Origin: Subtercola lobariae | GTDB lineage: Bacteria; Actinomycetota; Actinomycetes; Actinomycetales; Microbacteriaceae | Direction: 5' to 3' | NCBI RefSeq assembly: GCF_014640255.1 | Contig: NZ_BMGP01000001.1 | Span: 785,851-849,850, forward strand | Length of the DNA: 64,000 nucleotides | In this document: piece after piece, positions 26,700 through 58,888 of the stretch | Layout of the letters: each line of letters begins with the position of its first letter | Numbering within the stretch: position 1 is the first letter of the stretch | The notes under the pieces: model-generated | What the model saw: only the letters and a program-made list of their open reading frames with translations | What the model was told of the DNA's origin: nothing | The model's database searches: none | Made by a program: the position numbers and the translations under genes

Positions 26700-27749
26700 T
26701 CAAGCCGAGAGGCGTGCCTGCTCGGGTGTCACGCGCAATTGCTCGGTTTCGAGAAAGCGGCCAGCCGCGGCGTTCGCATGGGAGACGGCCGCCAAGAGAT
26801 CGCGTGCGGTGAGCGATGCGGGTGCGGCGGATGCCCGCGGAGCGGATTCGCGAGAGGTCGACGCGCGGGTGGCGGATGCCCGGGCCGTCGATGCGCGCGT
26901 GGCTGATGGGCGAGTGGCCGACGCGAACGAGGCGAGCGCCAAATGGGCGCTGAACACATCGCCCGCGCCGATGGTCACCACCGAGTCGGCCGTTTCGACG
27001 GGGGTCGCCGCCACCGGGTGGGCCACTCCGCCCACGAAGAGAGTTGCCCCGCGCTCGTTCTGCGTCACAACGATTCGGGTTTGGGCGAACTCGGCAGACC
27101 ATTCGGATGCTCGGGCCAGAGCATCCACGCAGTCTTCGTCTGAGAACACAACGAGGTCGAAGAACGGCAGCACGTGCGCGTAGTCGGCGAACTCGACCTG
27201 GCTGATGCGGTGATCGGCGCCCACGCGTCGAAAGTAGCCCTGTGGAACGAGCACCCGCAACGCTCCGGCAGATGTAGCCGCAAAGATCTGCTCGATGTAG
27301 TCGCCCGAAAATGTGTCGAGCAGGGGCGCCACGATCACGATGTCAGAGTCGGCGAGCTGGTCTGTCGTCGCCTCGGTGAGCGGTACGGCATCCGCCCCTT
27401 CAGTATGACGGCACTCCTGCAGGCGGTGACCGTCGACGAAGAGGTTGCGGTAGAGCAACGTCGGCGCGGCCGCGGGCGTGCCGAGCAGCGGTGTTTCGGG
27501 CGCGATCTCGACAAAGTCGTCCCCGTAGGGCGCGACAACAGCAGCCACGACGTAGGAGAGCTGTTCGAATTCGCTGACCATGTACACAGCAGGCGAACCG
27601 GGCACGCGGGTGACGGAGCTGTCGTCGCCGATGTTCTCGTCGATGCACACGTGGCCGACGATGGTAACTCGAACGGCCTGCTTGTGCCCGATTTTCGCAG
27701 GGGCGGGCGCGGGGCGCGCACTCGCGAAGGCTCTTCTCGTCACAATCAA
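26700..27749 (-). CDS. PfkB-family carbohydrate kinase-like protein
   Basis: Up to 349 aa from a TTG at 27749; GTG 27743 is an alternative. The ribokinase fold starts at RVTIVGHVCIDEN, and the ATP/catalytic motif VTIGAGDVFSAHLALASF is near residue 265. Between that motif and the last helices (LLAAVSHANAAAGRF) lies an insert of about 38 residues of repeated SATRAS/STSRES type, encoded by degenerate repeats at about 26821-26940. The N-terminal substrate motif is unusual (DDSSVTRVPGSPAV), so the sugar or nucleoside substrate is unclear. Confidence 0.8.
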   Translation of the reverse strand: MIVTRRAFASARPAPAPAKIGHKQAVRVTIVGHVCIDENIGDDSSVTRVPGSPAVYMVSEFEQLSYVVAAVVAPYGDDFVEIAPETPLLGTPAAAPTLLYRNLFVDGHRLQECRHTEGADAVPLTEATTDQLADSDIVIVAPLLDTFSGDYIEQIFAATSAGALRVLVPQGYFRRVGADHRISQVEFADYAHVLPFFDLVVFSDEDCVDALARASEWSAEFAQTRIVVTQNERGATLFVGGVAHPVAATPVETADSVVTIGAGDVFSAHLALASFASATRPSATRASTARASATRASTSRESAPRASAAPASLTARDLLAAVSHANAAAGRFLETEQLRVTPEQARLSA

Positions 27750-27924
27750 TCGTAACCAGCGAGGCTGTGCGTCTATGCCCGTGAACCTGTGTTTGCACTG
27801 TGTCTGTGCGCGTCGCGTGGCTGGGGCCGCCGCTTAGCGCTGCGCGTCGTGTGGCTAGGCCCGTGATGTGGCGGTGCCAGCCCGGTTCAGAGGCCGCCTG
27901 GTACTGCCTCGACCCGAACCGCAT

Positions 27925-29226
27925 CTACATCGTCAGCCCCGTGTAATGCGACTCCGGCCGAAGCCGCAACGGCGGTTCGCTGTACTCGGCCACCACGTGT
28001 GCCAACCAGCCCGCCGTGCGAGCGATCGCGAAGATGATGTGCCCCGCATCGGGCACCAGATCGGCGGCGGCCACGAACGTCGCGAGAGCCAAATCGAGGT
28101 TCGCCGGTCGCGCCACGCGCGCATTGACGATGGCAACGAGTCGCTCGGTCGTTCGAACGGCGTCGGAGTAGCGAGGTTCGCCGTGCATCCGGAGCATGAG
28201 GCAGACGAACCGCGGGTCACGGCTGCGGTAGACACTGTGGCCGAATCCCGGAATGCCGCGACCCGCCGACACGTGCCGGGCGACGGCGCGTTCGATGCCA
28301 CCGGGCCCCATCGCTTCGCGCAGCATCTCGGCCGCGGTGACGCTCATCGAGCCGTGCAGGCTGCTGTCGAACGCTCCGAGGGCGGCCGACACGGCGGCGT
28401 ACGGATGCGCCCGCGCCGACGCCGCAACACGCGCCGCGAGCGTGGCCACTGCCAGGTCGTGGTCGATGCACAGAATGAGCGCTGCGTCGAGCATCGCGAG
28501 GTCGCCCCCCATCGCGGGCCGTGCGCTCAGCTTGGGCCACAGCCGTTCGGCGAGCGAGGCGTGCGGATGCCCGGCGGCACCTGTGACCGGGGGCGCGCCC
28601 CCGGCGGGCGGCAGAGCATCTACCATCGCGCCGATCAGGCGACGGCCGGCCGAGAACACCACCTCGGGGTCGAGATCGTCGCGCAGCGGGTCGAGTGATC
28701 CGGCCAGCGTCACCGTCAGCGCCAGTCGGTCGATCATCCGCTGCGGCGAACCGAGCAGATCGCCGGCCGCACGCGCACGCCGCACGACATCATCGGGGGC
28801 GGTGAACGCAGCGGTCTGGGTGGAGGCCAAGAAGAACTCCATCACGCGCTCGGCTGGCCCATGCGCGACGAGGTCGGTGGCGCGCCTGCCGCGGTAGAAG
28901 AGCTCGTCGTTTTCGATCAACGTCAGCTCTGAGTCGAGCACCATCAACGGCCGCCCCGAGCGTGCGCTCGCCGCTCGCGCGAGTCGTTGGTGCGGCGCCT
29001 CGCGCTCACCGGCGGGCTGAGCGGGCCGAGTGGGCTGAGCGCGCTGAGCAGGCCGACGCATCGACTCCGCCAGCTCTTCGACGTCGAGTGCATCGAAAGT
29101 CGAACCGCCCGTCTCCGAACGGATGCTCGCAATCAGCCCGCGCGAAACGTAGGCGTACAGCGTCGCCGGCTTCACACCGAGCCGCCCAGCCGCCTGCGCC
29201 GTTGTCAGGCGCGGAAGGTCGCTCAT
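27925..29226 (-). CDS. Citrate-synthase-family protein with N-terminal HTH
   Basis: About 433 aa from ATG 29226 after GGAGAGG; two earlier in-frame starts exist. Residues 5-55 form a MerR/excisionase-like HTH (LTTAQAAGRLGVKPATLYAYV). The rest is a two-domain citrate synthase: SLHGSMSV around the first histidine, GFGHSVYRSRDPR with the second, and NLDLALATF with the aspartate. It is divergent from a second citrate synthase 143 nt away. I recall that Streptomyces has such an adjacent pair; whether the HTH protein is an enzyme, a regulator, or both is open. Confidence 0.87.
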   Translation of the reverse strand: MSDLPRLTTAQAAGRLGVKPATLYAYVSRGLIASIRSETGGSTFDALDVEELAESMRRPAQRAQPTRPAQPAGEREAPHQRLARAASARSGRPLMVLDSELTLIENDELFYRGRRATDLVAHGPAERVMEFFLASTQTAAFTAPDDVVRRARAAGDLLGSPQRMIDRLALTVTLAGSLDPLRDDLDPEVVFSAGRRLIGAMVDALPPAGGAPPVTGAAGHPHASLAERLWPKLSARPAMGGDLAMLDAALILCIDHDLAVATLAARVAASARAHPYAAVSAALGAFDSSLHGSMSVTAAEMLREAMGPGGIERAVARHVSAGRGIPGFGHSVYRSRDPRFVCLMLRMHGEPRYSDAVRTTERLVAIVNARVARPANLDLALATFVAAADLVPDAGHIIFAIARTAGWLAHVVAEYSEPPLRLRPESHYTGLTM

Positions 29227-29372
29227 CGGCGCATCCTCTCCCCGCGTGTCGGGCGTGTCGGGCATCGTCGCCTGCCCGCGAACCACCACCGCCATATTGA
29301 TTCGATCAACAATGATTTCGCACTCATCAACTCTCGTGGTGATCTGAACCTACTCGCAGCAGAGGAGAAATG

Positions 29373-30545
29373 ATGCAACCCACCGACCGAATGAACGACA
29401 CGCCCATCGACGTACCACGAGGACTCACCAACGTGATCGTCGCCGAAACCCAGCTCAGCGACGTTCGCGGGCTCGAAGGCTTCTACAACTACCGCCAATA
29501 CTCGGCCGTCGATCTCGCTCGTACCCGCTCCCTCGAAGACGTCTGGCAGCTCCTGCTCGACGGAGCACTGCCGACCCCGCTCGAACGGGCTGCCTTCGCC
29601 AACGAGATCGCGTCGTACGCGGCTCTCGATCCCGCGCTCGACCCGGTGCTGGCGATCGCGGCGGCAGCCAGCCCCAAGGCCGACCCGCTCGCCGGCCTGC
29701 GGCTCGTACTCACCGCCGAAGGAGCCAGAGTCGGTTCGCTCGCACTCTACGATCAGGCTCCGGATGCCCGCCGGGCCGCCCTCGTAGCGCTCGCTTCGAA
29801 GGTGCCCACCGTCGTCGCAGCACTCGCCCGGTTGAGTGCCGGTGAGCATCCCGTCGCTCCCGCACCGCACCTCGGATTCGTGGCGAACTACCTCTACATG
29901 CTGCACGGCGTCGAGGCGCCACCCGAGCATGTGGCAGCGCTTTCGGCGTACCTGGTCGCGGCTATCGATCACGGCTTCAACGCCTCGACGTTCACCGCCA
30001 GGGTCATCGCGTCGACGGGCGCTGACGCGGCATCGTGTCTCGTCGGCGCGCTCGGTTCGCTCTCGGGCCCGCTGCACGGCGGGGCACCGAGTCGGGCGCT
30101 CGATACCCTCGACGCCATCGGAACGCCCGAGAACATTGACGCGTACATCACGGCGCAAGTGCTCGCCGGTTCGCGCATTATGGGTTTCGGGCATCCGGTG
30201 TACCGCACCGAAGACCCACGCTCGGCGCTGCTGAAGCAGGTCGCGCTCGGCTTCGGCGGGCCGCGGGTCGGGTTCGCAGTGCAGGTCGAAGAGCGCATTC
30301 CGGTGCTGCTGGAGCAACTCAAGCCGGGGCGCGAGCTGCACACGAACCTGGAATGGTATGCCGCAATCGTCATGGAACTCTGCGGAATCGGGCGGCACCT
30401 TTTCACGCCGACGTTCGCGGTGGCGAGGGTGCTCGGGTACACGGCCAACATCATGGAGCAGGCGGCTGACGGCAAGATCATCCGTCCCTCCGCGAGGTAC
30501 GTGGGCCCGCCGGCGCCGCAGCCGGTGCCGGCAGTGATGCGATGA
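29373..30545 (+). CDS. Citrate/2-methylcitrate synthase family enzyme
   Basis: About 390 aa from ATG 29373 after GAGGAG (a second ATG lies directly before it). Domain motifs: GFYNYRQYSA near the N-terminus, GPLHGGAPSRAL with the first catalytic histidine, MGFGHPVYRTEDPRS with the second, and NLEWYAAIVMELCGI, in which the usual catalytic aspartate is glutamate. C-terminal FTPTFAVARVLGYTANIMEQ is the conserved dimer/CoA segment. It condenses acetyl- or propionyl-CoA with oxaloacetate if active. Divergent from the HTH-bearing paralogue, which may control it. Confidence 0.88.
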   Translation: MQPTDRMNDTPIDVPRGLTNVIVAETQLSDVRGLEGFYNYRQYSAVDLARTRSLEDVWQLLLDGALPTPLERAAFANEIASYAALDPALDPVLAIAAAASPKADPLAGLRLVLTAEGARVGSLALYDQAPDARRAALVALASKVPTVVAALARLSAGEHPVAPAPHLGFVANYLYMLHGVEAPPEHVAALSAYLVAAIDHGFNASTFTARVIASTGADAASCLVGALGSLSGPLHGGAPSRALDTLDAIGTPENIDAYITAQVLAGSRIMGFGHPVYRTEDPRSALLKQVALGFGGPRVGFAVQVEERIPVLLEQLKPGRELHTNLEWYAAIVMELCGIGRHLFTPTFAVARVLGYTANIMEQAADGKIIRPSARYVGPPAPQPVPAVMR

Positions 30546-30616: not shown

Positions 30617-32365
30617 ATGACCGAATCTCATGAATCGAACCAGCCGCTCGAGCTCGTACCGTTGCCCGGCAGTGAGCGTCAGCCGGCCCCTGGGGTGCGC
30701 CCGGCCGCGCATCCACTCGCTCGAGAGACCGCCGTGGAAGCGACTCTCGTCTTGCGCCGGGCCGGGGCTGCCGACCCGGCCGCGTTGGCGGGCGGCGACG
30801 CCGCGCCTCTGCCGCCGGCCGAGTTCGCAGCGCGATTCGGCGCTAGCGCGGCCGACGTCGAGCTGGTGACGAGCACGTTGGCGGGGCTCGGGCTCACCAT
30901 CATCGAGACCGACCCGGCTTCACGCCGGGTGAGGGTGTCAGGGCCCGTCAGCACCATCGACCGTGTCTTTGGCACGGCGCTCGAGGCGGCGAGCAGTGAA
31001 GGCGCTGACGGTTCGCGTGTGACGCACCGTCATCGAGCTGGCAGTCTCAGCATTCCGGCCGTGCTCGCCGGCGTGGTCACGGCCGTGCTCGGTCTTGACG
31101 ACCGGCCGCAGGCGCGCGCGCAGTTTCGCGTCGCCGAAGCGCACGCCACCTCGGTGAGTTACACGCCGGTGCAACTCGGCGAGATCTACGACTTTCCGGC
31201 CGGCACTGACGGCGCGGGCCAGACCGTGGCCATCATCGAGCTGGGTGGCGGGTTCGCGGAGAGTGATCTCGATGCATACTTCGGCGGGTTATCCATTCAG
31301 ACGCCCGACGTTCGCGCCGTCGGGGTCGACGGGGCCGTGAACGAACCGGGCAAAGACGCGCAGGGAGCAGACGGTGAAGTGCTGCTCGACATCGAGGTCG
31401 TCGGGGGGCTCTCGCCACGGGCATCCATACTCGTCTATTTCGCACCGAACACAGACGCTGGGTTTCTGGATGCCGTGGCCACCGCCGCGCATGCCACACC
31501 CACCCCCGCCGCCATCAGCATCAGCTGGGGTCAGAGCGAAGACGAATGGACAGCCCAGGCCCGCACCGCGCTCGATGACGCGCTGCTCGATGCGGCGGCT
31601 CTCGGCATCACGGTGACTGCAGCCGCGGGAGACAACGGGAGTTCAGACAGTGCTGCGGGCGGGGCCAACCACGCCGATTTTCCGGCGTCGAGCCCGCACG
31701 CGCTGGCCTGCGGGGGCACTCGGCTCGAAGCTTCAGGTACGAAGGTGACCAGCGAGACGGTGTGGAACAACGGCGTAGGCAACGGTGCGACCGGCGGGGG
31801 AGTGAGCGATGTGTTCGCGCTACCGGCTTGGCAGAGGAGCGCAGGGGTTCCGGCCTCGCCGACGCGAGGAGGCGGTCGAGGAGTGCCCGATGTGGCGGCG
31901 AACGCCGACCCGCAGACCGGCTACGAGGTGCTCGTCGACGGCAAGCGCGCGGTGTACGGCGGTACGAGTGCGGTCGCTCCGCTGTGGGCCGCGCTCGTGG
32001 CTCGGTTGGTGCAGTCGCTCGGCTCGCCCCTCGGGTTGTTGCAGCCGAAGCTCTACGAGCTGTCGTCGGGCCTTCGAGATGTCACCGTCGGCAACAACGG
32101 AGCATTCGCCGCGGGCCCGGGGTGGGATGCGTGTACCGGTCTCGGCGTGCCGAGCGGTACCGCGTTGCTCGCGGCGCTGAAGGCTTCGCACCCGGCGGCG
32201 TCTTCACTCTCGGCGGAGGCTTCGCTACCGTCGGAGGCTTCGCGCCCGTCGGCCACTTCGCGCGCTTCGGGCAATTCGCTGGCGTCGCCCGGCCGGCCAG
32301 TCGTCCAGTCGGCTGACCTCGCCGATGAGCTGCGTAGCATCCGCGCCATCGGTGAAGACCGCTGA
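30617..32365 (+). CDS. S53 sedolisin/kumamolisin-type peptidase
   Basis: 582 aa. An N-terminal pro-kumamolisin domain (about 35-160) precedes the subtilase-like domain (from about 180). The S53 set is complete: E254 and D258 (GEVLLDIE), oxyanion D339 (AAAGDNG), and S451 in YGGTSAVAP. No signal peptide is visible at the N-terminus. The C-terminal 60 residues are Ser/Ala repeats (SLPSEASRPSATSRAS). It is an acid-active endopeptidase by family; the location is unclear. Confidence 0.9.
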   Translation: MTESHESNQPLELVPLPGSERQPAPGVRPAAHPLARETAVEATLVLRRAGAADPAALAGGDAAPLPPAEFAARFGASAADVELVTSTLAGLGLTIIETDPASRRVRVSGPVSTIDRVFGTALEAASSEGADGSRVTHRHRAGSLSIPAVLAGVVTAVLGLDDRPQARAQFRVAEAHATSVSYTPVQLGEIYDFPAGTDGAGQTVAIIELGGGFAESDLDAYFGGLSIQTPDVRAVGVDGAVNEPGKDAQGADGEVLLDIEVVGGLSPRASILVYFAPNTDAGFLDAVATAAHATPTPAAISISWGQSEDEWTAQARTALDDALLDAAALGITVTAAAGDNGSSDSAAGGANHADFPASSPHALACGGTRLEASGTKVTSETVWNNGVGNGATGGGVSDVFALPAWQRSAGVPASPTRGGGRGVPDVAANADPQTGYEVLVDGKRAVYGGTSAVAPLWAALVARLVQSLGSPLGLLQPKLYELSSGLRDVTVGNNGAFAAGPGWDACTGLGVPSGTALLAALKASHPAASSLSAEASLPSEASRPSATSRASGNSLASPGRPVVQSADLADELRSIRAIGEDR

Positions 32366-32378
32366 CTCAGGAGCTTCG

Positions 32379-34103
32379 TTAGAGGCCGCGCGCGACCGCA
32401 GAAGCCGCCGCGAGCCAGGCGCGTCTCGTGGTGGGCTGCAAGCCGTCGTACTGAATGCGGCCCGCCTTCAGCGCAGGGTCGAAAGGAACAATCACGACGT
32501 CACGCACGTACGGGCGAAAGTCGTCTGCCATGCGCTGCGAGATGCTCGACTCCTTCGGCTGCCACTCCGACACCACGACAACCGCGTTGCGCGCGAGTTC
32601 GGCGGCCTTCTCGCTGCGACTCTGCACGGCCTGCAGCGTCAGCAACGCGGCCTGGGCGCGGTCTTCCATCGTGGTTGTCGGTACGACGAGCTGATCGGTG
32701 TGGTCGATCATTCGCAACCAGTTCTCGGCGCGGTCACTGTTGCCGGAGTCCATGAAGATGAGCCGGTAGTACTTCGCCGCGATGCTGTGCACCACGTCGA
32801 CCTCGTCGGCCGTCATTTCGTGAATGCCCGTCGCATCTTCGTCAGATCGCAGCACATCGAACTTGTCGGCCTGCTGATGGTGCACGAAACCCGACATCTG
32901 GCCGAATTCGGCTCGCGTATCGAGTAACTCGTCAGCGCTTGCCAGCACGTCGAGCACGGTCGATTCGTGGGCGCCCTGCTCGGTGCGCCAGCCCAGCGTG
33001 CCCATGGTCTCGTTGTTGTCCCAGGCCAGAACGCCGCCACCCCCGTAACGTCCGAAAACCGCAGCGAGGTTGACGACTGTGGGCGTCTTGTTCGCTCCGC
33101 CCTTTCGGTTGATCACGCTGATGGTGCGGTGCGCGTCGAAATGCCGTGAAACCTCGGCGATATCGGCTCGTTCGCTGCGCTCATCGGGGCCCGGTGCGAG
33201 ATGCAACCCGAAGTGGTTCATGAACCCGGCGAAACCTCGACGAGCGGGCTCGGCCACAGTCGGAAGCGCCAAAAAGGAGGGGGCGTCGAGCAAATCACGA
33301 CGTTCTTGCTCTGACATGTGTTCTTTCGGTGCGGTCGGTGCGTTAGACGATGGTTCAGTGGATGCCCGTACCGGCGTAGCTGGTGCGTTCGCTTCGGGGG
33401 TGGCCGGGGCTGGTTCGGGTGTGGCGCCCTCAGGTTCGGGCTGCGGTTCGGGTTCGGGCTCGATGAGGGTGGAGTTCTGTTGAGTCGAGATTTCAGCCTC
33501 AGGCGCAGCCGCGAAGTCTGAAGCGGGTCGGCCGGCGGATACCGGCGAGGGAAGCGCGGCGCTGTCACCGTCGTCGTAGTCGTAGTCATCGGCGTCATCG
33601 TCGAACTCTTCGTCGTGCGCGCCGCTGCCTTCGATCGGATCTTCGGCCACATCATCGGCGTCGACTTCTTGGCCCGCGGCGGTGGTGGGAGTATCCACAC
33701 GGCCCGCGGCAACGTCGGCGGGAGCATCCACTGCGTCGGCGGCAACGTCGGCAGGAGCATCCGCTTCGCTCACAGATGCGTCGGCCGGGGCATCCTCTTC
33801 GGCCGGCGGCCACGGCTGTGGCAGGTCTTCGAACGGAACGAAGCTCTCTTCTTCGATCGACCCGTCGGGAGCGGCGAGCAGAATGCTGAGGCCCGTTCGC
33901 GCCCGCACGGTCACCCGCACCGTCTGCCCGACCTTCGACGCCTCGTTCTGAATGAGGCCGATGAGTGCTTGCAGAGCCTCGCCCTCGGAGGTGCCGTGTA
34001 ACGGCTGAGCTACCCCGTCGACACGCAGTAGACCCGTGTGATCGGCCCGCAGAAGAGCGGTGATGACGGGTTGATCAAGCGCCTGGCTTCTATCAATTGC
34101 CAC
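32379..34103 (-). CDS. MinD/ParA-like ATPase with an acidic linker
   Basis: 574 aa from a GTG. Residues 1-95 form an unnamed conserved domain, 96-330 is an acidic, Pro/Ala-rich linker containing an imperfect AADAVDAPADVAA repeat, and 330-574 is a MinD-like ATPase. The Walker A region reads INRKGGANKTPTVVNLAAVF: KGGANKT in place of the usual KGGVGKT. Other elements (LAWDNNETMGTLGW, YRLIFMDSGNSD) are conserved in place. I recall similar ATPases near cell-envelope genes in actinobacteria; function not known. Confidence 0.8.
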   Translation of the reverse strand: MAIDRSQALDQPVITALLRADHTGLLRVDGVAQPLHGTSEGEALQALIGLIQNEASKVGQTVRVTVRARTGLSILLAAPDGSIEEESFVPFEDLPQPWPPAEEDAPADASVSEADAPADVAADAVDAPADVAAGRVDTPTTAAGQEVDADDVAEDPIEGSGAHDEEFDDDADDYDYDDGDSAALPSPVSAGRPASDFAAAPEAEISTQQNSTLIEPEPEPQPEPEGATPEPAPATPEANAPATPVRASTEPSSNAPTAPKEHMSEQERRDLLDAPSFLALPTVAEPARRGFAGFMNHFGLHLAPGPDERSERADIAEVSRHFDAHRTISVINRKGGANKTPTVVNLAAVFGRYGGGGVLAWDNNETMGTLGWRTEQGAHESTVLDVLASADELLDTRAEFGQMSGFVHHQQADKFDVLRSDEDATGIHEMTADEVDVVHSIAAKYYRLIFMDSGNSDRAENWLRMIDHTDQLVVPTTTMEDRAQAALLTLQAVQSRSEKAAELARNAVVVVSEWQPKESSISQRMADDFRPYVRDVVIVPFDPALKAGRIQYDGLQPTTRRAWLAAASAVARGL

Positions 34104-34965: not shown

Positions 34966-36006
34966 ATGAAACGCTCTTCGACAACCGCCGGCTTGGCCAT
35001 CGCCGTGCTCGCCGCCGCCACCTTCGGCACCTCGGGCGCACTCATCAAGCCGCTGCTCGAGTCGGGTTGGAGCCCGGGCGCAGCCGTTACCGTTCGAGTG
35101 CTCATCGGGGGAGTGGTTTTGCTTCCATTCGCCATCGTTTCGCTGCGCGGCCGGTGGTCTGCCCTCTGGCGCTCACGGTGGCGCGTGCTCGCGATGGCCA
35201 GCGTGGGCGTGGCGGGAACGCAGCTCGTGTACTTCGCTGCAATTTCTCGCATTCCGGTATCGACCGGCATTCTGATCGAGTACATGGCTCCGCTGTTGTT
35301 GGTGGCGTTCGTCTGGGCACGCACGCGCCGGATGCCGAAGGTCGTTGTGCTGGTCGGCTCAGTCGTCGCACTGGTGGGTCTTGTTCTCGTGGTGTCGCCC
35401 GGGGGTGGGGGCAGTTTCGACGCTCTCGGTTTCGCGTTCGCGCTCGCTGCGATGGTCGGATGCGCCATTTACTACGTGATCGCCGCCCGGCCGAGCGACG
35501 GGCTGCCGACCGTGGCGCTCGCCGGGTTCGGGTTGCTGATCGGCGGGCTGATGCTGGTGATCGTGGGCGCCGTGGGTCTGGTGCAGTTCACGTTCACGTT
35601 CGGTACCGTGTCGATGTTCGGTTCTGCGGTGGTGTGGTGGGTTCCGTTGGTGCTCGTGGGGGTCGTGGGTACTGCGGTGGCGTACGCGGCGAGTATCACG
35701 GCCAGCGAGATGCTCGGGTCTCGGCTCGCGTCGTTCGCGGGGCTGCTCGAAGTGGTCGCGGCGACGTTCTACGCGTGGTTGCTGCTCGGCGAGAAGCTCA
35801 GTGTGCTGCAGTTGGTGGGTGGGGCGCTGATTCTGGTGGGCATCGGGTTCGTGCGGTCGGAGCGGGTGGAGCCTGAGCAGCAGATAGTGGGTGCTGCCGC
35901 GGGGGCTGGTTCTGGGGCTGATTCGGGGTCGGGCTCTGGTGTCTCGTCGTCTTCGTCTTCGCCGCGCTCTTCTTCTTCTTCTTCTTCCTCCTCCTCCACA
36001 ATTTGA
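34966..36006 (+). CDS. EamA/DMT-superfamily transporter
   Basis: 346 aa with ten predicted transmembrane helices in two EamA repeats (about 10-135 and 150-285). The first helix region TFGTSGALIKPLLESGW is typical. The last 40 residues are Gly/Ser-rich and end in a run of serines encoded by (TCT)n and (TCC)n microsatellites (35935-35998). Members export amino acids or other metabolites. No operon partner. Confidence 0.9.
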   Translation: MKRSSTTAGLAIAVLAAATFGTSGALIKPLLESGWSPGAAVTVRVLIGGVVLLPFAIVSLRGRWSALWRSRWRVLAMASVGVAGTQLVYFAAISRIPVSTGILIEYMAPLLLVAFVWARTRRMPKVVVLVGSVVALVGLVLVVSPGGGGSFDALGFAFALAAMVGCAIYYVIAARPSDGLPTVALAGFGLLIGGLMLVIVGAVGLVQFTFTFGTVSMFGSAVVWWVPLVLVGVVGTAVAYAASITASEMLGSRLASFAGLLEVVAATFYAWLLLGEKLSVLQLVGGALILVGIGFVRSERVEPEQQIVGAAAGAGSGADSGSGSGVSSSSSSPRSSSSSSSSSSTI

Positions 36007-36086: not shown

Positions 36087-37823
36087 ATGACTTCTTCTGC
36101 ACCCCACGAGACAATCGAACGGCTCTTCGCCGACCTCGATTCGCTCGTCGTGCGTGCGGCAGAGCTTCGCGGGCGAATCGATCCGGCAGCGGCGAGTGAT
36201 GACGATTTGCTTCGGCTGACCTCCGATGTTGCACGTGTTGGGCGGGTCATCGACTCGGTTCAGATTGCGCTCGTTGCCGAACTCGCCGATCGTTCTCGGC
36301 CCGAGATCGGCCCCGACCGTCTCAGCGCGAAGAGGGGCTGCCGAAACGCGGTGGAGTTGCTGCAACGCCTCACTCAGGTCTCGTCGGCGACCGCAGCTCG
36401 ATGGGTGCGACTCGGTGCGGCTCTGCGGGACGAATGTTCTGTGTCGGGGCAGGTGCTGCCTCCACGGTTTCCGTCGCTCGCTGCTGCCTTCGAAACAGGC
36501 GAAGTCAGTGTAGATGCAGCTTCGGCGATCATCTCCGGGCTTTCGGTGTCAACGCTTCGAGCCGACTCGCAGGCTGTCGAAGCGGCCGAGCACGAACTCG
36601 TCGAGGCCGCTCTCGGGGTCAGCCCGGAGTGCCCGGTTCCGGCCTCCGCCGACGACCTCAAACTTCAGGCGTCGGTGTGGCGTTCACTCATCGACCCAGA
36701 CGGCGTGGAGCCAGACGAAGAGCGAGCGATGCGTCATCGTTTTCTCACGCTCGGCAAGGCTCGTTCGTCGGGGGTTCCTCTCTCGGGCATGCTGATGCCT
36801 GAGGCGGCGGCGCGCCTGAAGCGCCTCTTCGACGCGCACCTCTCGCCGGTCTCCCGCGTGGTCGCCTTCCCGGGTGAAGCTGGTGCACGCGACGGCGAAT
36901 CGGCTCCGCACGAACCAGCTCTGCCCGATTCGGCTCTGGCCGAACCGGTGATTGATTCGCGTTCCCGCGGAATGCAGCAGCACGACGTCTTATTGTCGAT
37001 TCTCGACCACGCGGCCCGTTCCTCCGATGCGCCGACCATCGGCGGAGCTTCGCCTACCGTGCTGGTGAGCATCTCCGAGCGCGACTTGGGCGAGGTGCAC
37101 GATTCGGCTGACTCGGCTGACTCGGCCGATTCGGCTGACTCGGCCGGACGCGCCCACGCCACTGACGCCACTGACGCCACTGACGATGCGTACTTCAGCG
37201 GCGACGCGAACTCCACTGATGATGCGCATGTCAGCGGCGACGCGCACTCGACTGATGACGCGCATGTCAGCGGCGACGCGCACGCCACCGATGACGCGCA
37301 CTCCAGCGACGGTGCGCATTCCGCAGTCGGCGGGCGTTGCGGGGATCGGGGTGCCGTGGGCACATCGGCTGGTGTCGGTTGGATCGACGGGCTCGAGGTA
37401 CCGGTCTCGCTCCGCACGGTGCGTCAGATGGCGTGCACCGGCGGAACGCAGAGTATCGTTCTCGCCGAGAACGGGCGCGTGATTCGTCTCGGCACCGAGC
37501 AGCGCTGCTTCGACGGCTGGCAGCGTCGGGCGATCACCCTCCGCGACGGCGGGTGCATCATTCCGGGCTGCCGCATTCCTGCCTCGTGGTGCGAAATTCA
37601 CCACGTCACCGAACATTCCCAGGGCGGTCCGACCCACACTGACAACGGTGTGCTCCTCTGCTGGTTCCATCACCGCACCATCGAACACTCCGGTTGGCAG
37701 ATTCGAATGTACGGCGGTGTGCCCCAGATAAAAGCGCCCCCGTGGATTCACACCCTCCACAGATCGTGGACGCCCGTCTCCTCGTCGCGAACACGACTCA
37801 CTGACGCACGCCGGCGAGTCTGA
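36087..37823 (+). CDS. DUF222 + HNH endonuclease-domain protein (13E12 type)
   Basis: 578 aa. DUF222 covers about 5-330. HNH is near 485-535: CIIPGCRIPASWCEIHHVTEH, then TDNGVLLCWFHHRTIEHSGW, with metal-binding H-N-H residues in place. Between them (about 338-415) is a repeat-rich hydrophilic insert: DSA units of 9 nt, then TDDAHVSGDAH units of about 30-36 nt. Such genes are common in actinobacteria as multicopy, possibly selfish or DNA-processing families. No inverted repeats of a mobile element were found around it. Confidence 0.88.
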   Translation: MTSSAPHETIERLFADLDSLVVRAAELRGRIDPAAASDDDLLRLTSDVARVGRVIDSVQIALVAELADRSRPEIGPDRLSAKRGCRNAVELLQRLTQVSSATAARWVRLGAALRDECSVSGQVLPPRFPSLAAAFETGEVSVDAASAIISGLSVSTLRADSQAVEAAEHELVEAALGVSPECPVPASADDLKLQASVWRSLIDPDGVEPDEERAMRHRFLTLGKARSSGVPLSGMLMPEAAARLKRLFDAHLSPVSRVVAFPGEAGARDGESAPHEPALPDSALAEPVIDSRSRGMQQHDVLLSILDHAARSSDAPTIGGASPTVLVSISERDLGEVHDSADSADSADSADSAGRAHATDATDATDDAYFSGDANSTDDAHVSGDAHSTDDAHVSGDAHATDDAHSSDGAHSAVGGRCGDRGAVGTSAGVGWIDGLEVPVSLRTVRQMACTGGTQSIVLAENGRVIRLGTEQRCFDGWQRRAITLRDGGCIIPGCRIPASWCEIHHVTEHSQGGPTHTDNGVLLCWFHHRTIEHSGWQIRMYGGVPQIKAPPWIHTLHRSWTPVSSSRTRLTDARRRV

Positions 37824-47100: not shown

Positions 47101-47213
47101 GCCGCCCGCACTCGACCGTGAGGTCGGCCCGCGCGCTTGGTGCCCGTTCGCCGCTGGCGGGCGTCGCTGCCTCGTGGTGTCGCCGGTGCGGTGCGTCTCA
47201 TGTGTGACCTCAT
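44106..47213 (-). CDS. Fusion: exported S15-type alpha/beta hydrolase + ABC-exporter ATPase
   Basis: 1035 aa. A signal or anchor helix at 36-57 and a long Ala/Ser repeat lead to an S15-like hydrolase (about 115-400) with S227 in VVGGSYGG, D355 in LQGLQDN and H386 in WFNGGHDGG. A jelly-roll type domain follows to about 655, a second transmembrane helix lies at about 667-690, and residues 735-1035 form an ABC ATPase: GENGAGKTT (769-777), YSQGM (865-869), LLVLDEP (885-891). So an outside enzyme is joined to a cytoplasmic motor. It is coupled to the permease. As I recall, similar fusions occur in other actinobacteria. ATG 47201 is an alternative start with GAGGT upstream. Confidence 0.9.
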   Translation of the reverse strand: MRSHMRRTAPATPRGSDARQRRTGTKRAGRPHGRVRAAVATLAVAILASGLALATGATTATAATPAAATASASASASAVASASAVAAATAATSPSATAPASTAAASTGPHVRSFFVPVAESPGSASTIQLDVDLYTPAVTPAPAVLLAHGFGQTKADLVPEAKELQDAGYVVLAYTARGFGQSGGSIGLDSLSGEVPDARALVDVLASEPAVQNVNGDPVVGVVGGSYGGALALMLGATDPRIDTVVAAITWNNLAQALVPSSAGVVADSSTSSGTATDVLRDFKSGWASRLFGAGITPTDPCGRFTPAFCALYQNLISGAQPSAADLALLAQSSPSTVLSGMKAPTLLLQGLQDNLFGLDQADANEQQLVKAGAPVSLQWFNGGHDGGGIGGTDTIITSWLADHLKANLPVPSTFTYAVPPSATGFGQTITAASYPGLNGASTGQQIALAGAETSIVNPPGGQPESVTGVPGLNTGSVAGGAISGLLSASNPPAEQAAFVSAPLTDPVILAGAATVRVHVTPAPENAALESAASTNAGSTNPGSTNAASTNAAATGAPPTTTASSDAVLYAQLSVTTGTATRALPGGVAPIHVALPASGADVTVTLPATAWSFTPGDRLTLTIRTSDSQFSGAATPAAYSVAIDGPITLPTVAAQSTDKSAGLPTLGSLIGIGVTLLVALGLIVVALIRSRRSPATAKASTSTRPGASPVPGEAAAAPSAAAAFESEREPEGPPLQINGLTKRFRSGFLAVDDVSFTVERGQVLGLLGENGAGKTTTLRMVAGLIRPDSGSASSFGATISPGSPVLSRLGCFIEGPGFLPHLSGRRNLELYWAATGRPASEAQFDEALAVADLGGALAKPVRGYSQGMRQRLAIAQAMLGMPDLLVLDEPTNGLDPPQITALRGVLRRYAEGGRTVIVSSHLLGEVELTCTHVVVMSHGKVVATGPVGDIAGDSSELVIGVTDVDAALAAVRNLGVDRAEAHEPSGIRVLPGAHPVDSVVATLVEAGVGVTSLQRGRHLEEAFLSLIGAREPSA

Positions 47214-48973: not shown

Positions 48974-50056
48974 TCACGGCGTTTCTTCTCCCGCCGGGTC
49001 GGGCGTTGCGCTGAGCAGGTCGAGAGACACCTGCCACAGCCGCCGGGCATTCTCAGGGTCGACCGCGTAGTCGGCGACGCCGAGACGGATGCCCGGCTGC
49101 TGCGGCGCGGCTTCGGCGCAATCGGCGAAGTACCGGCCGGTCACACCGTCGACGAGTGGTGATGCCGCCAGCAGCACCGAGGTTGCAGCGCCCTGCTCCA
49201 CCGTCTTGTAGACGATGTCGGGGTTGTCGGCCTGAAACCGAGCGGGCGGGGCCGTGGGCTGGCTGTCGAGGTGTCTCATCAGGCCGGTGCGGATGCGCCC
49301 CGGTGTGAGCGCATTGACCGTAATGGCGTCGTTCTTCCAGCGATTGGCGGCTTCGACGGTGAATAGTACGTTCGCCGTCTTCGATTGGCTGTAGGCGGCC
49401 CACGGGTCGTAGGGGTCGTGTTCGAAGTTGATGTCGTCGAAGAGAACCGGGCCGTTCAGGTGACCTACCGAACTGACCACCACCACGCGGGCGCCGTGCG
49501 CCGCCGCTAAGGCATCGTGAAGGCCCACGGTCAGAGCGAAGTGGCCCAGATGGTTGGTGGCGAACTGCAGCTCCCACCCTTCTCGGGTGCGCAACTCGGG
49601 GGTGGCCATCACGCCGGCGTTGTTCACGAGAATGTGGAGCGGGCCCGACCAGGCGGAGACGAATGCGGCGATGGAGGCCTGGGAGGCCAGGTCGAGCAGG
49701 CCCACGCGAACGCTGCCGCTGCTTGTGCTGCTGTCGCTGTTGCTGTTGCTGTTGCTGCTGCTTGTGCTGGTGCTGCTGCTTGTGCTGTCGGCGCCACTTT
49801 CGCGCCCGCGCCCGCTGCTGCTGGCCTCGCCGCCGGTGGCGCCCAGCTCATCCGCCGCCCTCCGCCCCTGCTCGAGGTCTCGAACGGCGAGGGTCACCTC
49901 AGCGCCAGCGCTCAGGAGGGCGCGGGCGGTCTCGAGACCGATGCCCGAGGCGCCGCCGGTCACGATGGCGCGTTTGCCGGTGAGATCGACACCCGCAATG
50001 ACCTCTGCGGCGGTCGATTGCGCGCCGAACGGAGTTGTGATGAGTGGGGTGGGCAT
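48974..50056 (-). CDS. SDR-family reductase with a serine/asparagine-rich insert
   Basis: About 360 aa from ATG 50056, the second of two ATGs after AAGG. The core has GGASGIGLETARAL, NNAGVMATPE, VSSVGH and AAYSQSKTANV. In the nucleotide-binding half, between the helix after LAVRDLEQGRRAADEL and the strand VRVGLLDLAS, lies about 40 residues of Ser/Asn/Thr (SSSTSTSSSNSNSNSDSS), encoded by trinucleotide repeats at about 49690-49800. Homologues lack it. Divergent from a TetR gene. The reading frame is maintained throughout. Confidence 0.87.
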   Translation of the reverse strand: MPTPLITTPFGAQSTAAEVIAGVDLTGKRAIVTGGASGIGLETARALLSAGAEVTLAVRDLEQGRRAADELGATGGEASSSGRGRESGADSTSSSTSTSSSNSNSNSDSSTSSGSVRVGLLDLASQASIAAFVSAWSGPLHILVNNAGVMATPELRTREGWELQFATNHLGHFALTVGLHDALAAAHGARVVVVSSVGHLNGPVLFDDINFEHDPYDPWAAYSQSKTANVLFTVEAANRWKNDAITVNALTPGRIRTGLMRHLDSQPTAPPARFQADNPDIVYKTVEQGAATSVLLAASPLVDGVTGRYFADCAEAAPQQPGIRLGVADYAVDPENARRLWQVSLDLLSATPDPAGEETP

Positions 50057-50093
50057 GGGCATCCTTCGCGCTCGAAGATTCTGGGGTACGCTC

Positions 50094-50815: not shown

Positions 50816-50877
50816 GTGAGCCCGTTACGTCGAATTGAGGCCGCTACAACAGGCTCAACTCGACGTATCGGACTCAC
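50816..50877. terminator. Long imperfect inverted repeat between converging genes
   Basis: The 24-nt arms 50816-50839 (GTGAGCCCGTTACGTCGAAT...) and 50854-50877 pair at 21 of 24 positions around a 14-nt loop. The structure spans the end of the TetR region and the last codons of the hydrolase. It would be a strong bidirectional hairpin, though without a T-run. Confidence 0.6.
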
Positions 50878-51821
50878 TCGGAGGCGGAGGCGGAGGCAGA
50901 GGCGGCGGCGGAGGCGGGGCCGTCGGCGGCAGCGACGGGCGCCGAGCTGGTCGGGCGAGTCACGTGCGCAAGAATCCGCTGCCATTGGCTCACAATCGCC
51001 AAAGCTCCGGCGTTCTTGACGTCGACCACCCGTGAACCGCGGATGCGGCGGCCGTACCAGTGGCCGTCGCCGACGGTCGCCGTGGGGTCTCGATCGCCGT
51101 AGATCAGCAGGGTCTCGGCCGTGATGGCGGGCAGGTCGAGGGTCCAGGAGCGGTCGCGAAACGCGATCAGGTCGCTCGAGAGCCCCGCGGCGCCCTGCCG
51201 TGCGGCGTCGTCGATCATGCGATCGAGTCGGCCGCGAAGACCGCGCTGCGCCAAGACCGAGTCCGTTTCGTCGATACCGAGCGACTGGAGCGTGAGCTCA
51301 CCGTGAGCCGCGATGACACGCGAAAGTTCAGAGCGAGGGGAGAATGATTCGATGCGCGAAAGCCCGAGCATCCGCCGCACCGGTTCGATGAGCCCGCGAC
51401 CGCCCGCCTTCGCAAGACCCACGATCGCGAGCCGATCGACGAGTTCGGGGTAACGGGCCGCGAGCGAGAGGGCGGTGGCCCCGCCCGCGCCCCAGCCGAT
51501 GACGCCCACCGAACCGAAATCGACCGCGTTCATGTTGCGCGAGACGCGCTCAGAGTGGTTCAAGAAGTACGCGAGGTCGTCGGCGTGCTGCTCGATGGTG
51601 GGGTCGTCGTCGCGGGCGAACGGGTCAGACGAGCCGTAGCCGGGCCGGTCGATCATGAGCAGTTGGATGCCCGAAGCGGCCGTGATCAGCGGATCGGGGT
51701 CGAAGCCACCCGCCCCCGGCGCAGGGTGGCACACCACCACCATGCGCCGAGAACCCGGATCGCCTGCCGCGGTCAGACCGAGGGCCCGCCCCGTGGGGAG
51801 AGTGAAATGCTGATTCGCCAT
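50874..51821 (-). CDS. Alpha/beta hydrolase
   Basis: 315 aa from ATG 51821, with AGGAG upstream. The oxyanion strand reads VVCHPAPGAGGFDPDP, the nucleophile elbow position GWGAGGATAL has alanine where serine is expected (G-W-G-A-G), and the acid and histidine regions are LIYGDRDPTA and NAGALAIV. The lack of the usual Ser and His suggests a non-catalytic or altered member. The tail is an alanine/serine run (AAASASASASE). Confidence 0.8.
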   Translation of the reverse strand: MANQHFTLPTGRALGLTAAGDPGSRRMVVVCHPAPGAGGFDPDPLITAASGIQLLMIDRPGYGSSDPFARDDDPTIEQHADDLAYFLNHSERVSRNMNAVDFGSVGVIGWGAGGATALSLAARYPELVDRLAIVGLAKAGGRGLIEPVRRMLGLSRIESFSPRSELSRVIAAHGELTLQSLGIDETDSVLAQRGLRGRLDRMIDDAARQGAAGLSSDLIAFRDRSWTLDLPAITAETLLIYGDRDPTATVGDGHWYGRRIRGSRVVDVKNAGALAIVSQWQRILAHVTRPTSSAPVAAADGPASAAASASASASE

Positions 51822-53303: not shown

Positions 53304-54158
53304 TCAACCACTGGCGTCGTCGCTCGCCACGCGCCGGAGTGACTCGCCCAGACCGATGTCGGCGACGATGACCCGGCCCGCGTAGCGCGCTCCGGGTTCG
53401 ATCAGCAGGCCGGCCTTGCAGCCGCCGAACGTCACGGTGATGGCGGCCGCGAGCACCGTGCTGTCGGGAACAACCCCGTCGTCGGCGCCGACTCCGCTCG
53501 GCAGGTCGACCGCAACCACAAGGGGCTCGGTGAGCCCGGTCGTCGCCGTACCCGACTCGCCCGAAGCCGTGCCTGCCGTCGCGTGCGAAGACGTTTCGGC
53601 GGTGGTTGCGGTGGTGGTGGTGTTGGCGGTGGCGGTGATGGCGCCGAGGATGCCCGCCACAATGTCTCGGGCCAGCCCCCGCAATGCCGGGTTCGCGCTC
53701 GTTCCGGTGCCGAGTATTCCGTCGAGAATGATGTCGCTCTCGGCCGCAACCCGGGCGACCTGCTCCACGTACGACGCACCATCGGCGATCCCGGGCGAGC
53801 CCCCGGCGAGCTTGGTGGCGCCCTTGTCGATGACGGCGGAGCCCCCGGCGATCACGGCGGCACCCGCGGCGACCGCCGCCGCCAACCCCTCCTCGTGGAT
53901 GCGCTCAGACGTCGGCGCGATCGCCACTCGCGCGCCAAGACGAGCGAGCTGCGCGGCGGCGAACAGCGCATCACCCCCGTTGTTGCCCGAACCCGCGAGA
54001 ACCAGCACGCGAGCCGCGCCGGTAGCGACACCAGACCTCTCGAGCAGGGCCCGGGTCTCTTCGGCAAGCGCCGCAGCCGCGCGCGCCATCAGCGGAATAC
54101 CCGCCGCGAGCAGCGGTTCTTCAGCGGCACGAACCTGCGCTGCTGTGTACGTCTCCAT
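53304..54158 (-). CDS. nnrE: NAD(P)H-hydrate epimerase (YjeF N-terminal domain)
   Basis: About 284 aa from ATG 54158; the longer open frame to 54380 runs into the next gene. The YjeF_N fold includes VLVLAGSGNNGGDALFAAAQL, DIILDGILGTGTS and VVAVDLPSGVGADDG. Before the last motif lies a Thr/Ala/Ser-rich insert of about 35 residues from (GGT/GTG)n-like repeats at 53577-53650. The ADP/ATP-dependent dehydratase half (NnrD) is absent here. It repairs damaged NADHX/NADPHX. Confidence 0.88.
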   Translation of the reverse strand: METYTAAQVRAAEEPLLAAGIPLMARAAAALAEETRALLERSGVATGAARVLVLAGSGNNGGDALFAAAQLARLGARVAIAPTSERIHEEGLAAAVAAGAAVIAGGSAVIDKGATKLAGGSPGIADGASYVEQVARVAAESDIILDGILGTGTSANPALRGLARDIVAGILGAITATANTTTTATTAETSSHATAGTASGESGTATTGLTEPLVVAVDLPSGVGADDGVVPDSTVLAAAITVTFGGCKAGLLIEPGARYAGRVIVADIGLGESLRRVASDDASG

Positions 54159-54219
54159 GTCTCGCTCTCCCACTTCCTCTCCCGCTCCGGCGCCGCCGAG
54201 CCTTGGACCCCGCCGAGCC

Positions 54220-54741
54220 TTACTCCTCGCAGAGCTCTTTGAGCGCGATGAGCACGGGGTTCTCCTCGCGAGCCGCCCCGTCGTCGGCGAATCGGCCCTC
54301 GCCACTCTCGTATTCCTCGTCGTCGAGCTCATCTTCGAACTCGTCGCCGTCATCACCCGCGCCCTCGAAGAGGTCGTCACCGCCCTCGCTCGGCCGCGGG
54401 TCTTCCTGCACGATCGTGATGCGCGTCGAATCGCCCGAACGCGTCAGCGTGTACGTCATGACGAAGTAGTTCTCCGGCACGTCGGCCAAGTCGGCCCGGG
54501 GCGCGAAGAGCGTGTACTTCAGGCTCTGAGCAGGTGAGAACTCGAGCACCGTTCCCCACTGCTCGAACCGCTGCCCCTCCCACTCCGAAATGAAGCGAAT
54601 GGGCCCGCCAACGCTCCAATCGGTGATGAGGTGACTGCCGTACTGCCAGCGCAGAACCAGTTCGGGCCGCGTGACGGCAGCCCACACCCGTTCGGTGCTC
54701 GCTGCGATGTCGATGAATGAGGTCGAGGTGGAATAAGCCAT
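54220..54741 (-). CDS. SRPBCC/AHSA1-like protein
   Basis: 173 aa. Residues 5-125 form a START-like fold beginning STSFIDIAASTERVWAAVTRPELV and containing PIRFISEWEG. The C-terminal 45 residues are strongly acidic (FEGAGDDGDEFEDELDDEEYESG). AHSA1-like proteins bind small hydrophobic ligands. It may be in a transcript with the epimerase 61 nt downstream. Confidence 0.85.
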   Translation of the reverse strand: MAYSTSTSFIDIAASTERVWAAVTRPELVLRWQYGSHLITDWSVGGPIRFISEWEGQRFEQWGTVLEFSPAQSLKYTLFAPRADLADVPENYFVMTYTLTRSGDSTRITIVQEDPRPSEGGDDLFEGAGDDGDEFEDELDDEEYESGEGRFADDGAAREENPVLIALKELCEE

Positions 54742-56158: not shown

Positions 56159-56605
56159 ATGACCTCAGTCGCACTCGCCACCACCTCTACGTTGCTCGGC
56201 AGCTGGATGCTTCGCTCCTACGTCGAGACCGCAGACACGGGCGAGACGCGATTGCCGCTCGGCGAGCATCCACAGGGCTCGATTCTGTACACCGGTGACG
56301 GCCGCATGTCGGCGCAGATACTCAGGTCGACCGATGAGGCCGGCGCCTCAGACAAGGGCCCCGGCACCGACCGCGCCGACGCGTACTTTCTCGCCTACTC
56401 GGCCCGCTTCTGGGTCGACGAGGCCGCGCAGATCGTGACCCACGAGATCGAGATCTCAGCCATTCCGAGCTGGAACGACACCTCCCAGCGCCGCCGCATC
56501 GGCCTGCTTGCCGACGGCTCGCTCACCCTCACCACGGTCGAGCCGGTGGCAACGACCTCAGGCACTTCGCTCGCGACCCTCACCTGGGTGCGCTACCCGG
56601 CCTAA
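56159..56605 (+). CDS. Lipocalin-like (Lipocalin_5) protein
   Basis: 148 aa. The beta-barrel start LLGSWMLRSYVE, then GSILYTGDGRMSAQI and ARFWVDEAAQIVTHEIEISA fit the small lipocalin-like domain family found in bacteria and fungi. Cytoplasmic; ligand unknown. It is divergent from the CPBP gene and 82 nt before the zinc-ribbon gene on the same strand. Confidence 0.85.
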   Translation: MTSVALATTSTLLGSWMLRSYVETADTGETRLPLGEHPQGSILYTGDGRMSAQILRSTDEAGASDKGPGTDRADAYFLAYSARFWVDEAAQIVTHEIEISAIPSWNDTSQRRRIGLLADGSLTLTTVEPVATTSGTSLATLTWVRYPA

Positions 56606-56687
56606 CACCGACTCGGCCTCACGTCGGCTCGGCCTCACGTCGGTCGGCCGAATAAGAGGAGCCCCTCAGAGCACCACCGAACCCACT

Positions 56688-57254: not shown

Positions 57255-58109
57255 ATGGCGCTGGAGAAATGGCTCGTGTCTGAGCCGAAAGTCATCGATC
57301 TCGACCTGGTTCGCTCGGTCAAGATCAGCCTGATCGGCGGCAAGATCGACATCATCGGGCACGACGAGCCCGGCGCCCGCGTCGAGGTGCACTCGGTCAG
57401 CGGCAAAGACCTGAAGGTGCAGATCGACGGCGACCACCTCGAAATCGATCACCCGCAGTTGCGGTGGGATAACTTCATCGACGTGTTCGCGTCGTTCCGC
57501 GGCACGGCGAAAACCGACGTGAGCCTGCTGGTTCCCCGCGAGGTTGCGCTCAAGTTCGGCGTAGTGAGTGCAAGCGCGCTCATCTCAGGCCTCACGAGCT
57601 CGGTGAAGATCAATTCAGTGAACGGCGACGTCGTTATCGACGGTGTCACCGGAGACCTCGAGATCAACACGGTCAACGGCGAGATCTCGGTGAGCGATCA
57701 CAGGGGAGACGTCAGCGCCAAAACCGTCTCGGGCGACATCACGGTCAGTGGCGAGGTGGCGAAGTTCTCGGCAGACGGGGTCGCAGCCAACGTCTTCGTC
57801 GACCTCGACGGAACCGTCGACACCATCGACAACAACACCGTCTCGGGTGGCTTCACCGTTCGTTTCGACGACACTCTCGGCGCCCGGTACAACGTCAACA
57901 CTGTTTCCGGCGTGCTGAGCCTCGACGGCAGCGTCTTTCGCGGCATCTACGGCAAGGGCAAGAACTTCACTACTGGTTCGCTGAACGGCCGGTTCGCCGA
58001 GGTGCACGCGAATTCCGTTGCGGGCGACATCACCGCCGTACGACGCTCGGCCGCCGCGCAGGCATACGAGAACCCGGCATACGAGACCCCGGCAGAGGCG
58101 ACAGCGTGA
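57255..58109 (+). CDS. DUF4097-family beta-strand repeat protein
   Basis: 284 aa from ATG 57255 (a second start lies near). After a short lead it consists of repeating beta-strand units such as SVKINSVNGDVVIDGVTGDLEINTVNGEISV, the hallmark of DUF4097/DUF4098 right-handed beta-helix or sheet proteins, sometimes called adhesin-like. No signal peptide or membrane helix is seen. It overlaps the PadR start by 4 nt (GTGA), so the two are translationally coupled. Confidence 0.85.
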   Translation: MALEKWLVSEPKVIDLDLVRSVKISLIGGKIDIIGHDEPGARVEVHSVSGKDLKVQIDGDHLEIDHPQLRWDNFIDVFASFRGTAKTDVSLLVPREVALKFGVVSASALISGLTSSVKINSVNGDVVIDGVTGDLEINTVNGEISVSDHRGDVSAKTVSGDITVSGEVAKFSADGVAANVFVDLDGTVDTIDNNTVSGGFTVRFDDTLGARYNVNTVSGVLSLDGSVFRGIYGKGKNFTTGSLNGRFAEVHANSVAGDITAVRRSAAAQAYENPAYETPAEATA

Positions 58110-58888
58110 CGGGCATCTTCGGCCACGGCGATCTGAGGTTGTACCTGCTTAGTCTGCTGGCCGAGCATCCACGCCACGGGTATGAGCTCATCCAGGCCCT
58201 GAGCGACCGTTTCGGCGGAACCTACAGCCCGAGCGCCGGCACCATCTACCCGCGCCTGGCGAAACTCGAAGACGAAGGTCTGGTCACCAAGAGCACCGAC
58301 GGACGCAAAACCGTCTACTCCATTACTGATGCGGGCCGGGCCGAGTTGGATGCCCGGCGCGACGACCTCGACTCCATCGAGAACAACGTGACCGACTCCG
58401 TGCGGCAGCTCGCCGACGGCCTCCGCGCGGGCGTGAATGACGCCATGCGCAGCCTGCGCGCGGATCTTGCCGCAGCGGCCCAGTCGTCACGGCCAGACCC
58501 GGGCCGCACGTACACCGACACCGGCAGCACCTCGGGCACTCGCGCTTCGGCAGGCGAACGGCCCACCGATCGGCAGCCCAATTACGGCAACGGCGCCGAA
58601 CAATCCACCGGCACCGAGCAATCCACCGGCACCGAGCAGTCCACCGGCACCGAGCAACCCACCGGCACCGAGCAACCCACCGGCACCGAGCAACCCGCCG
58701 ACCAGCGCACTCAGAACGCCGACGCCATCCGCGAAGTAGAACTCGCACTCAACGGCTTTCGCGCCTCGGTTCGGGTCGATCTGCGCAAACATGCTGCCCG
58801 GGCAGCCGTGCCGGCGGCCGCTGTCTCACGGTTCACCTCTGAGCTGAAGCGCATCCAGGCCGAACTGAAGACGAACCTCGGCGCCTGA
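58106..58888 (+). CDS. PadR-family regulator with a hexapeptide repeat linker
   Basis: 260 aa from GTG 58106, overlapping the DUF4097 stop. The winged helix (about 8-85) is a clear PadR type: LYLLSLLAEHPRHGYELIQALSDRF and GTIYPRLAKLEDEGLV. A linker from about 166 holds five exact or near-exact 18-bp units (58604-58693), each encoding STGTEQ or PTGTEQ. The C-terminal 70 residues are helical. It probably represses its own operon. Confidence 0.88.
   Translation: MTGIFGHGDLRLYLLSLLAEHPRHGYELIQALSDRFGGTYSPSAGTIYPRLAKLEDEGLVTKSTDGRKTVYSITDAGRAELDARRDDLDSIENNVTDSVRQLADGLRAGVNDAMRSLRADLAAAAQSSRPDPGRTYTDTGSTSGTRASAGERPTDRQPNYGNGAEQSTGTEQSTGTEQSTGTEQPTGTEQPTGTEQPADQRTQNADAIREVELALNGFRASVRVDLRKHAARAAVPAAAVSRFTSELKRIQAELKTNLGA

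Follow-up and report, generated by a model that had tools for sequence, protein, structure and literature searches.

Why do short tandem repeats occur in frame in so many unrelated proteins encoded by one part of the Subtercola lobariae genome, and are they the sign of a slippage- or duplication-prone genome and a source of rapid protein variation, as a sequence-only reading had suggested? The stretch analysed here, referred to as the window, comprises 64 kb and corresponds to contig 1:785851-849850 of the 4.09-Mb genome. Using Tandem Repeats Finder (TRF) with a score threshold of >=50 and merging overlapping calls, we counted 27 arrays in the window, i.e. 42 per 100 kb. Depending on the gene caller, 17 or 18 of the 27 are genic (Table 1). 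TRF and the translations bore out in-frame tracts in many unrelated proteins: at each site named by the sequence-only reading a tract was present and in frame with its gene, with weak TRF scores (40-41) for the EamA transporter. The units found are 3 to 36 bp long, compared to the 3 to about 30 bp given earlier. The host proteins are enzymes, regulators, a sensor kinase and a transporter, without a shared theme. The observation of in-frame tandem arrays in genes is thereby confirmed, and the earlier interpretation of them holds in part.

A third-order Markov sequence control yielded 2.1 arrays per 100 kb (about 1.3 per 64 kb) versus the 27 in the window. Shuffling codons within genes left on average 0.82 genic arrays, with a maximum of 4 in 40 shuffles; the observed number is 17. 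The claim that the arrays exceed chance expectation therefore stands by a wide margin, and head-to-tail copies in such excess are what characterizes slippage-born coding minisatellites.

Table 1. Selected tandem arrays of the window and their location relative to genes.
Array	Position	Strand	Location
30/15 bp	26826-26925	-	PfkB-like gene 26700-27749 (Pfam PfkB slightly below cut-off)
18 bp	32181-32279	+	near C-terminus of gene 30617-32365
33 bp	33687-33762	-	variable linker, gene 32379-34103 (AAA_31 slightly below cut-off)
12 bp, weak (score 41)	35902-35939	+	C-terminal tail, EamA transporter 34966-36006
TCT run, Ser tract (score 40)	35968-35987	+	C-terminal tail, EamA transporter 34966-36006
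15 bp	36896-36948	+	DUF222 gene 36087-37823
9 bp	37104-37144	+	gene 36087-37823, between DUF222 and C-terminal parts
36/18 bp	37156-37322	+	gene 36087-37823, between DUF222 and C-terminal parts
18/9 bp	38803-38975	-	sensor histidine kinase gene 37899-39704, upstream of HisKA
17 bp x 3.4	41029-41086	.	outside assigned genes; period not divisible by three
9 bp x 9.8	42176-42263	+	N-terminus of SDR gene 42164-43138, ahead of SDR domain
15 bp x 5.4	45556-45636	-	peptidase S15-ABC fusion gene 44106-47213
18/6 bp, A/S/T-rich	46945-47020	-	near N-terminus, peptidase S15-ABC fusion gene 44106-47213
18/12/6 bp (Ser/Thr/Asn)	49712-49788	-	SDR gene 48974-50062
6 bp (Ala/Ser tail)	50879-50944	-	C-terminus of gene 50874-51821
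9 bp (Thr/Ala)	53597-53643	-	length-variable stretch, YjeF_N (NnrE) gene 53304-54380
21 bp, degenerate	53783-53872	-	second variable stretch, YjeF_N (NnrE) gene 53304-54380
18 bp x 6.1, TGTEQ[S/P]	58591-58700	+	variable linker, PadR gene 58106-58888

Comparison with orthologues of sister species

Thirteen window arrays with a score of >=45 had at least one Subtercola orthologue and were compared, using one genome per species and regarding less than 60% identity in the array columns as different. That the tracts are insertions, as claimed earlier, agrees with the outcome: in all 46 comparisons the sister species either had no residues at the site (16) or a different sequence (30), and none was similar. 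A repeat unit conserved between orthologues, as expected of a structured repeat-protein domain, was hence found at none of the 13 arrays. Another four arrays, all weak with scores of 45-52, yielded 13 comparisons, of which 12 were similar and one different. Two of the four belong to the TerC/Alx membrane protein; we take all four to be chance repeats in conserved stretches. For eight window arrays there was no orthologue among the sequences compared. None was available for the array of the sensor kinase.

The insert of the PfkB-like protein (34 residues) is missing in both Subtercola orthologues compared, and the longer array of the DUF222 gene is mostly missing from two orthologues. The residues of the 33-bp array are missing in one of five species compared and different in the other four. 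The only orthologue compared for gene 30617-32365 (in genome G009) has an Ala-rich tract at the array site. In the PadR linker the arrays have units of 21 bp in G009, 24 bp in G005 and 18 bp in G010, the last being perfect and different from the 18-bp array of the window; G004 and G006 have no array there.

The array of SDR 48974-50062 is missing in the G002 orthologue. It lies within a 41-residue stretch between residues 57 and 58 of PDB 3rd5_A, the points at which two local phmmer alignments end. Residues 78-114 are predicted to form a coil between a helix and a strand, with a pLDDT of about 32; the model (three sequences, mean pLDDT 53) was used just for this low-confidence coil.

In two cases the gene start is in question. 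The NnrE ORF as called is probably too long, because good similarity to three orthologues begins near METYTAAQVR, about 75 residues in. One of the 13 compared arrays (56598-56649) is probably located ahead of the real gene start, because similarity of this gene begins only at residue 66-73. The product of 44106-47213 comprises 1035 residues and is a peptidase S15-type hydrolase fused with an ABC ATPase domain.

Period, codon position and location in proteins

From the same genome 20 stretches of 20 kb were analysed. Using our own codon-usage gene caller, 86% of this DNA is coding, and it contains 61 coding and 36 noncoding arrays. The period was divisible by three in 60 of the 61 coding arrays versus 14 of the 36 noncoding ones, the latter value not differing from one third (p=0.48). 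Triplet periods in genes combined with unrestricted periods outside are typical of slippage-born coding minisatellites. Frame-switching periods, which mark phase-variable contingency loci, occurred in none of the 18 coding window arrays and in one of the 61 of the genome sample.

In-frame arrays reached 0.70 times their extragenic density within genes (p=0.24), compared to 0.007 times for frame-breaking arrays (p=3e-18). In this genome, genes thus carry in-frame arrays at nearly the extragenic density but hardly any frame-breaking ones, which provides a measure of selective tolerance. The corresponding ratio for in-frame arrays was 0.79 in other family genomes (p=0.27), where 16 of 163 coding arrays had non-triplet periods, and 0.50 in the pooled genus (p=6e-5). 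The latter value makes mild selection against in-frame arrays likely in the genus. Mismatches between adjacent copies at codon positions 1, 2 and 3 (0.155, 0.188 and 0.173) revealed no synonymous bias in the S. lobariae genome; in the pooled genus (0.151, 0.164 and 0.209) there was a mild third-position excess. Together with the genic ratio of 0.50 this excess indicates that in-frame arrays are not wholly selection-free. Of the 61 coding arrays, 24 are situated in the first or last tenth of the protein; besides protein ends, arrays prefer variable stretches. The array residues are enriched in A, G, D, S, T and P and depleted of bulky hydrophobics and K.

Array density in the genome, the genus and the family

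Besides the 400 kb of the S. lobariae genome we sampled 778 kb from 11 other Subtercola genomes and 1160 kb from 28 other genomes of the family; two genomes of other families (G028 and G029, 20 kb each) were excluded from the family and SbcCD statistics. The sampling was non-random, with stretches of fragmented genomes taken from contigs known by earlier matches. The density was 24.2 arrays per 100 kb in S. lobariae, 21.3 in the other Subtercola (pooled) and 19.1 in the other family genomes (pooled). Seven of the genus stretches lie on the PadR contig; without them the genus value is 20.0 instead of 21.3, and that of G002 25.0 instead of 49.8. Within the family the density ranges from 0 to 60 per 100 kb and rises with GC content (Spearman 0.66, p=0.0001, 28 genomes). 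Agreia has 7.2 arrays per 100 kb (six loci), Microbacterium with a GC content of 0.70 has 26 (17 loci). Six family genomes matched in GC content (0.62-0.675) have 9.2 per 100 kb when pooled, so that S. lobariae exceeds them 2.6-fold (p=0.003 on stretches). Subtercola is moderately array-rich for its GC content, yet within the range of the family. The earlier statement that the repeat density is well above the ordinary consequently applies in comparison with the six GC-matched relatives (24 vs 9.2), but neither within the genus nor within the family (21 and 19 when pooled) does the density stand out. The outcome named beforehand as speaking against the statement, equal density in relatives of the same GC content, was thus encountered in part.

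The window in turn is 1.7-fold denser than its own genome (42 vs 24 per 100 kb, bootstrap p=0.0075). The syntenic region was also denser than the rest of the genome in G009 (71 vs 24 per 100 kb), G010 (42 vs 15), G005 (40 vs 27) and G006 (19 vs 7). It was not enriched in G004 (14 vs 16), and the one stretch of G003 (20 vs 18) was counted as not enriched. The densest syntenic stretch measured (L143, G009:C1:2205001-2225000) contains 24 arrays in 20 kb. Given the densities of 71, 42 and 40 in G009, G010 and G005, the array excess is a feature of this neighbourhood shared by several species. An effect of the replication terminus was considered and rejected: dnaA is located at 3.295 Mb (G009), 0.963 Mb (G004) and 0.010 Mb (G006), which, assuming circular single contigs with the terminus opposite dnaA, places the syntenic region near the middle of a replichore.

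Origin of the arrays

Most probably the arrays are ordinary minisatellites of a GC-rich genome, born and lost by replication slippage or by tandem duplication at short homologies. Slippage, as the presumed generating event, would produce arrays everywhere in the genome, and selection would remove those breaking the frame from genes. The survivors would sit in tolerant loops and protein ends, where the proteins may well accommodate them at little or no benefit. Array density is a family-wide trait which rises with GC content, is somewhat high in Subtercola given its GC content and is higher still in this neighbourhood. The period, codon-position and noncoding data agree with largely neutral slippage. 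Some points stand against it, namely the 2.6-fold higher density compared to GC-matched genomes and the excess of the window over its own genome, furthermore the third-position excess and the genic ratio in the genus, and the four weak arrays shared with sister species. If arrays arise in this way, no adaptive story is required for the repeat-laden proteins of GC-rich actinobacteria.

Alternatively, the arrays might be adaptive variable regions, retained because they allow protein function to be tuned rapidly, similar to contingency loci or variable surface proteins. The high turnover between species within the same protein stretches would suit such a role. However, the hosts are mixed and lack a common theme, frame-switching periods are nearly absent in genes, in-frame arrays do not reach a higher density in genes than in noncoding DNA, and the S. 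lobariae genome has no synonymous-site excess, which makes adaptation a very unlikely explanation. It is even harder to maintain that the arrays merely reflect a GC-rich low-complexity composition or an artefact of assembly. Density does rise with GC content in the family, but the control means of about 1.3 (Markov) and 0.8 (codon shuffle) contrast with 27 and 17 arrays observed, the arrays keep reading frames, and similar ones occur in many separately assembled genomes.

Taken as slippage products, the window arrays fit known bacterial minisatellites and low-complexity regions. An excerpt of PMC2884548 describes small in-frame variable segments flanked by short repeats and names replication slippage as their likely origin. 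Like the minisatellites or VNTR loci in that excerpt, the window arrays consist of small tandem units in frame inside genes; VNTRs are defined by copy-number change between strains, whereas the genomes compared here comprise one per species. With prokaryotic low-complexity regions, as outlined in the abstract of PMC6821194, they share a richness in G, A, P and S and a paucity of bulky hydrophobics. The title and abstract of that paper stress conserved, functional regions, whereas the window arrays are not conserved among sister species. Phase-variable simple-sequence contingency loci, as presented in an excerpt of PMC3899988, are likewise repeat tracts within bacterial genes. They act as on-off switches, though, while the genic periods of the window are multiples of three.

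SbcCD and other repair functions

Another explanation is a duplication-prone lineage, in which arrays would be born more often because a repair function has been lost. We consider this rather unlikely; the best candidate is the Mre11-Rad50-like nuclease SbcCD. According to an excerpt of PMC1193525, SbcC and SbcD co-occur as a complex whose role in recombination is unclear. SbcD was above the cut-off in 22 of the 40 genomes measured and missing in 18, including S. lobariae. SbcC matches with E<=1e-30 were found in the same 22 genomes, the SbcC cut-off being reached in none of the 40. The genomes scored as negative include MAGs, some of them incomplete (two Subtercola and five genomes of the second sample mentioned below).

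Among the 40 genomes, those without SbcCD had more non-triplet arrays (median 7.5 vs 2.9 per 100 kb, p=0.001), more arrays with a score of >=80 (7.8 vs 3.8 per 100 kb, p=0.008) and a higher GC-adjusted total density (p=0.018). Neither raw total density (p=0.117) nor the number of near-perfect arrays (p=0.150) showed a significant association. Within Subtercola (6 vs 6 genomes) raw density did not differ by SbcCD (p=0.94). G006 lacks SbcCD, yet has 7 arrays per 100 kb. A test written down beforehand was applied to a second sample of 33 other genomes, 7 of them without SbcD, for which only PadR neighbourhoods were used; L024, L025, L036 and L044 (genomes already used) as well as L056 were left out. 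The one-sided p values after GC adjustment were 0.024 for total, 0.067 for non-triplet and 0.004 for score >=80 arrays, but 0.113, 0.106 and 0.011, respectively, without adjustment. On a two-protein tree of 50 taxa, from which G001 and G011 were excluded (no close PadR match), the SbcCD state needs at least 7 changes. PGLS with lambda fitted at 0 gave p=0.0004 for total density and 0.003 and 0.0001 for the other two measures; with lambda fixed at 1 the SbcCD effect vanished (p=0.59, 0.63 and 0.51).

Hairpins are the classic substrate of SbcCD. They were not commoner in genomes without SbcCD, and in Subtercola they were fewer (7.3 vs 10.3, p=0.005), so extra hairpins as a mark of SbcCD loss were not found. 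In G010 an sbcD/sbcC pair (L155-L156, C7:311573-315977) lies about 5.5 kb from the orthologue of the window gene 32379-34103; in the window itself no sbcCD remnants were detected by tblastn at E<=1e-3.

Loss of NucS was rejected as a cause, as S. lobariae has NucS and 57 of 60 genomes searched contain it; those lacking it are three small genomes (0.9-1.5 Mb) outside the density samples. XseA and RarA (MgsA_C) were both found in 23 of 23 genomes searched and are hence uninformative. The 5'-3' exonuclease domain PF02739 had at least one match above the cut-off in all 23 genomes. Twelve of the 23 encode a second, standalone 5'-3' exonuclease, which the sparser Subtercola genomes G004 and G006 lack. 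Carriers of the standalone protein tend to a higher density (median 25.5 vs 7.5, p=0.09, GC-adjusted 0.07). SbcCD is therefore not the sole candidate varying with density. In S. lobariae the standalone protein is encoded outside the window beside PolA (G000:C3:570051-570596); in G002, a MAG, PF02739 was seen just in the standalone protein and a fragment.

SbcCD is thus a lead which is not secure. It is doubtful, though conceivable, that repeated loss of SbcCD in Microbacteriaceae raises the genome-wide standing density of arrays and so sets the pace at which protein loops grow and change. If the link were true, one repair complex would be tied to the evolution of protein length across a family. 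A literature search of titles and abstract beginnings, with a limited library and limited terms, retrieved no array survey in Subtercola or Microbacteriaceae and no paper tying SbcCD to array density.

Further features of the window

Two 16-bp repeats lie at gene borders. At 22036-22079 a 16-bp unit with 2.8 copies bridges the gap between the divergent ORFs 20092-22038 (-) and 22057-23835 (+); the minus-strand ATG recurs at 16-bp steps and hence in different frames. An exact 16-bp duplication at 5484-5515 spans the overlap where ORF 4738-5499 ends and ORF 5496-6524 starts. Two citrate-synthase-like genes are arranged head to head at 27925-30545. In one of them (27925-29295, minus strand) the family match starts at about residue 125, and an Arg/Pro/Ala-rich array comprises residues 81-95.
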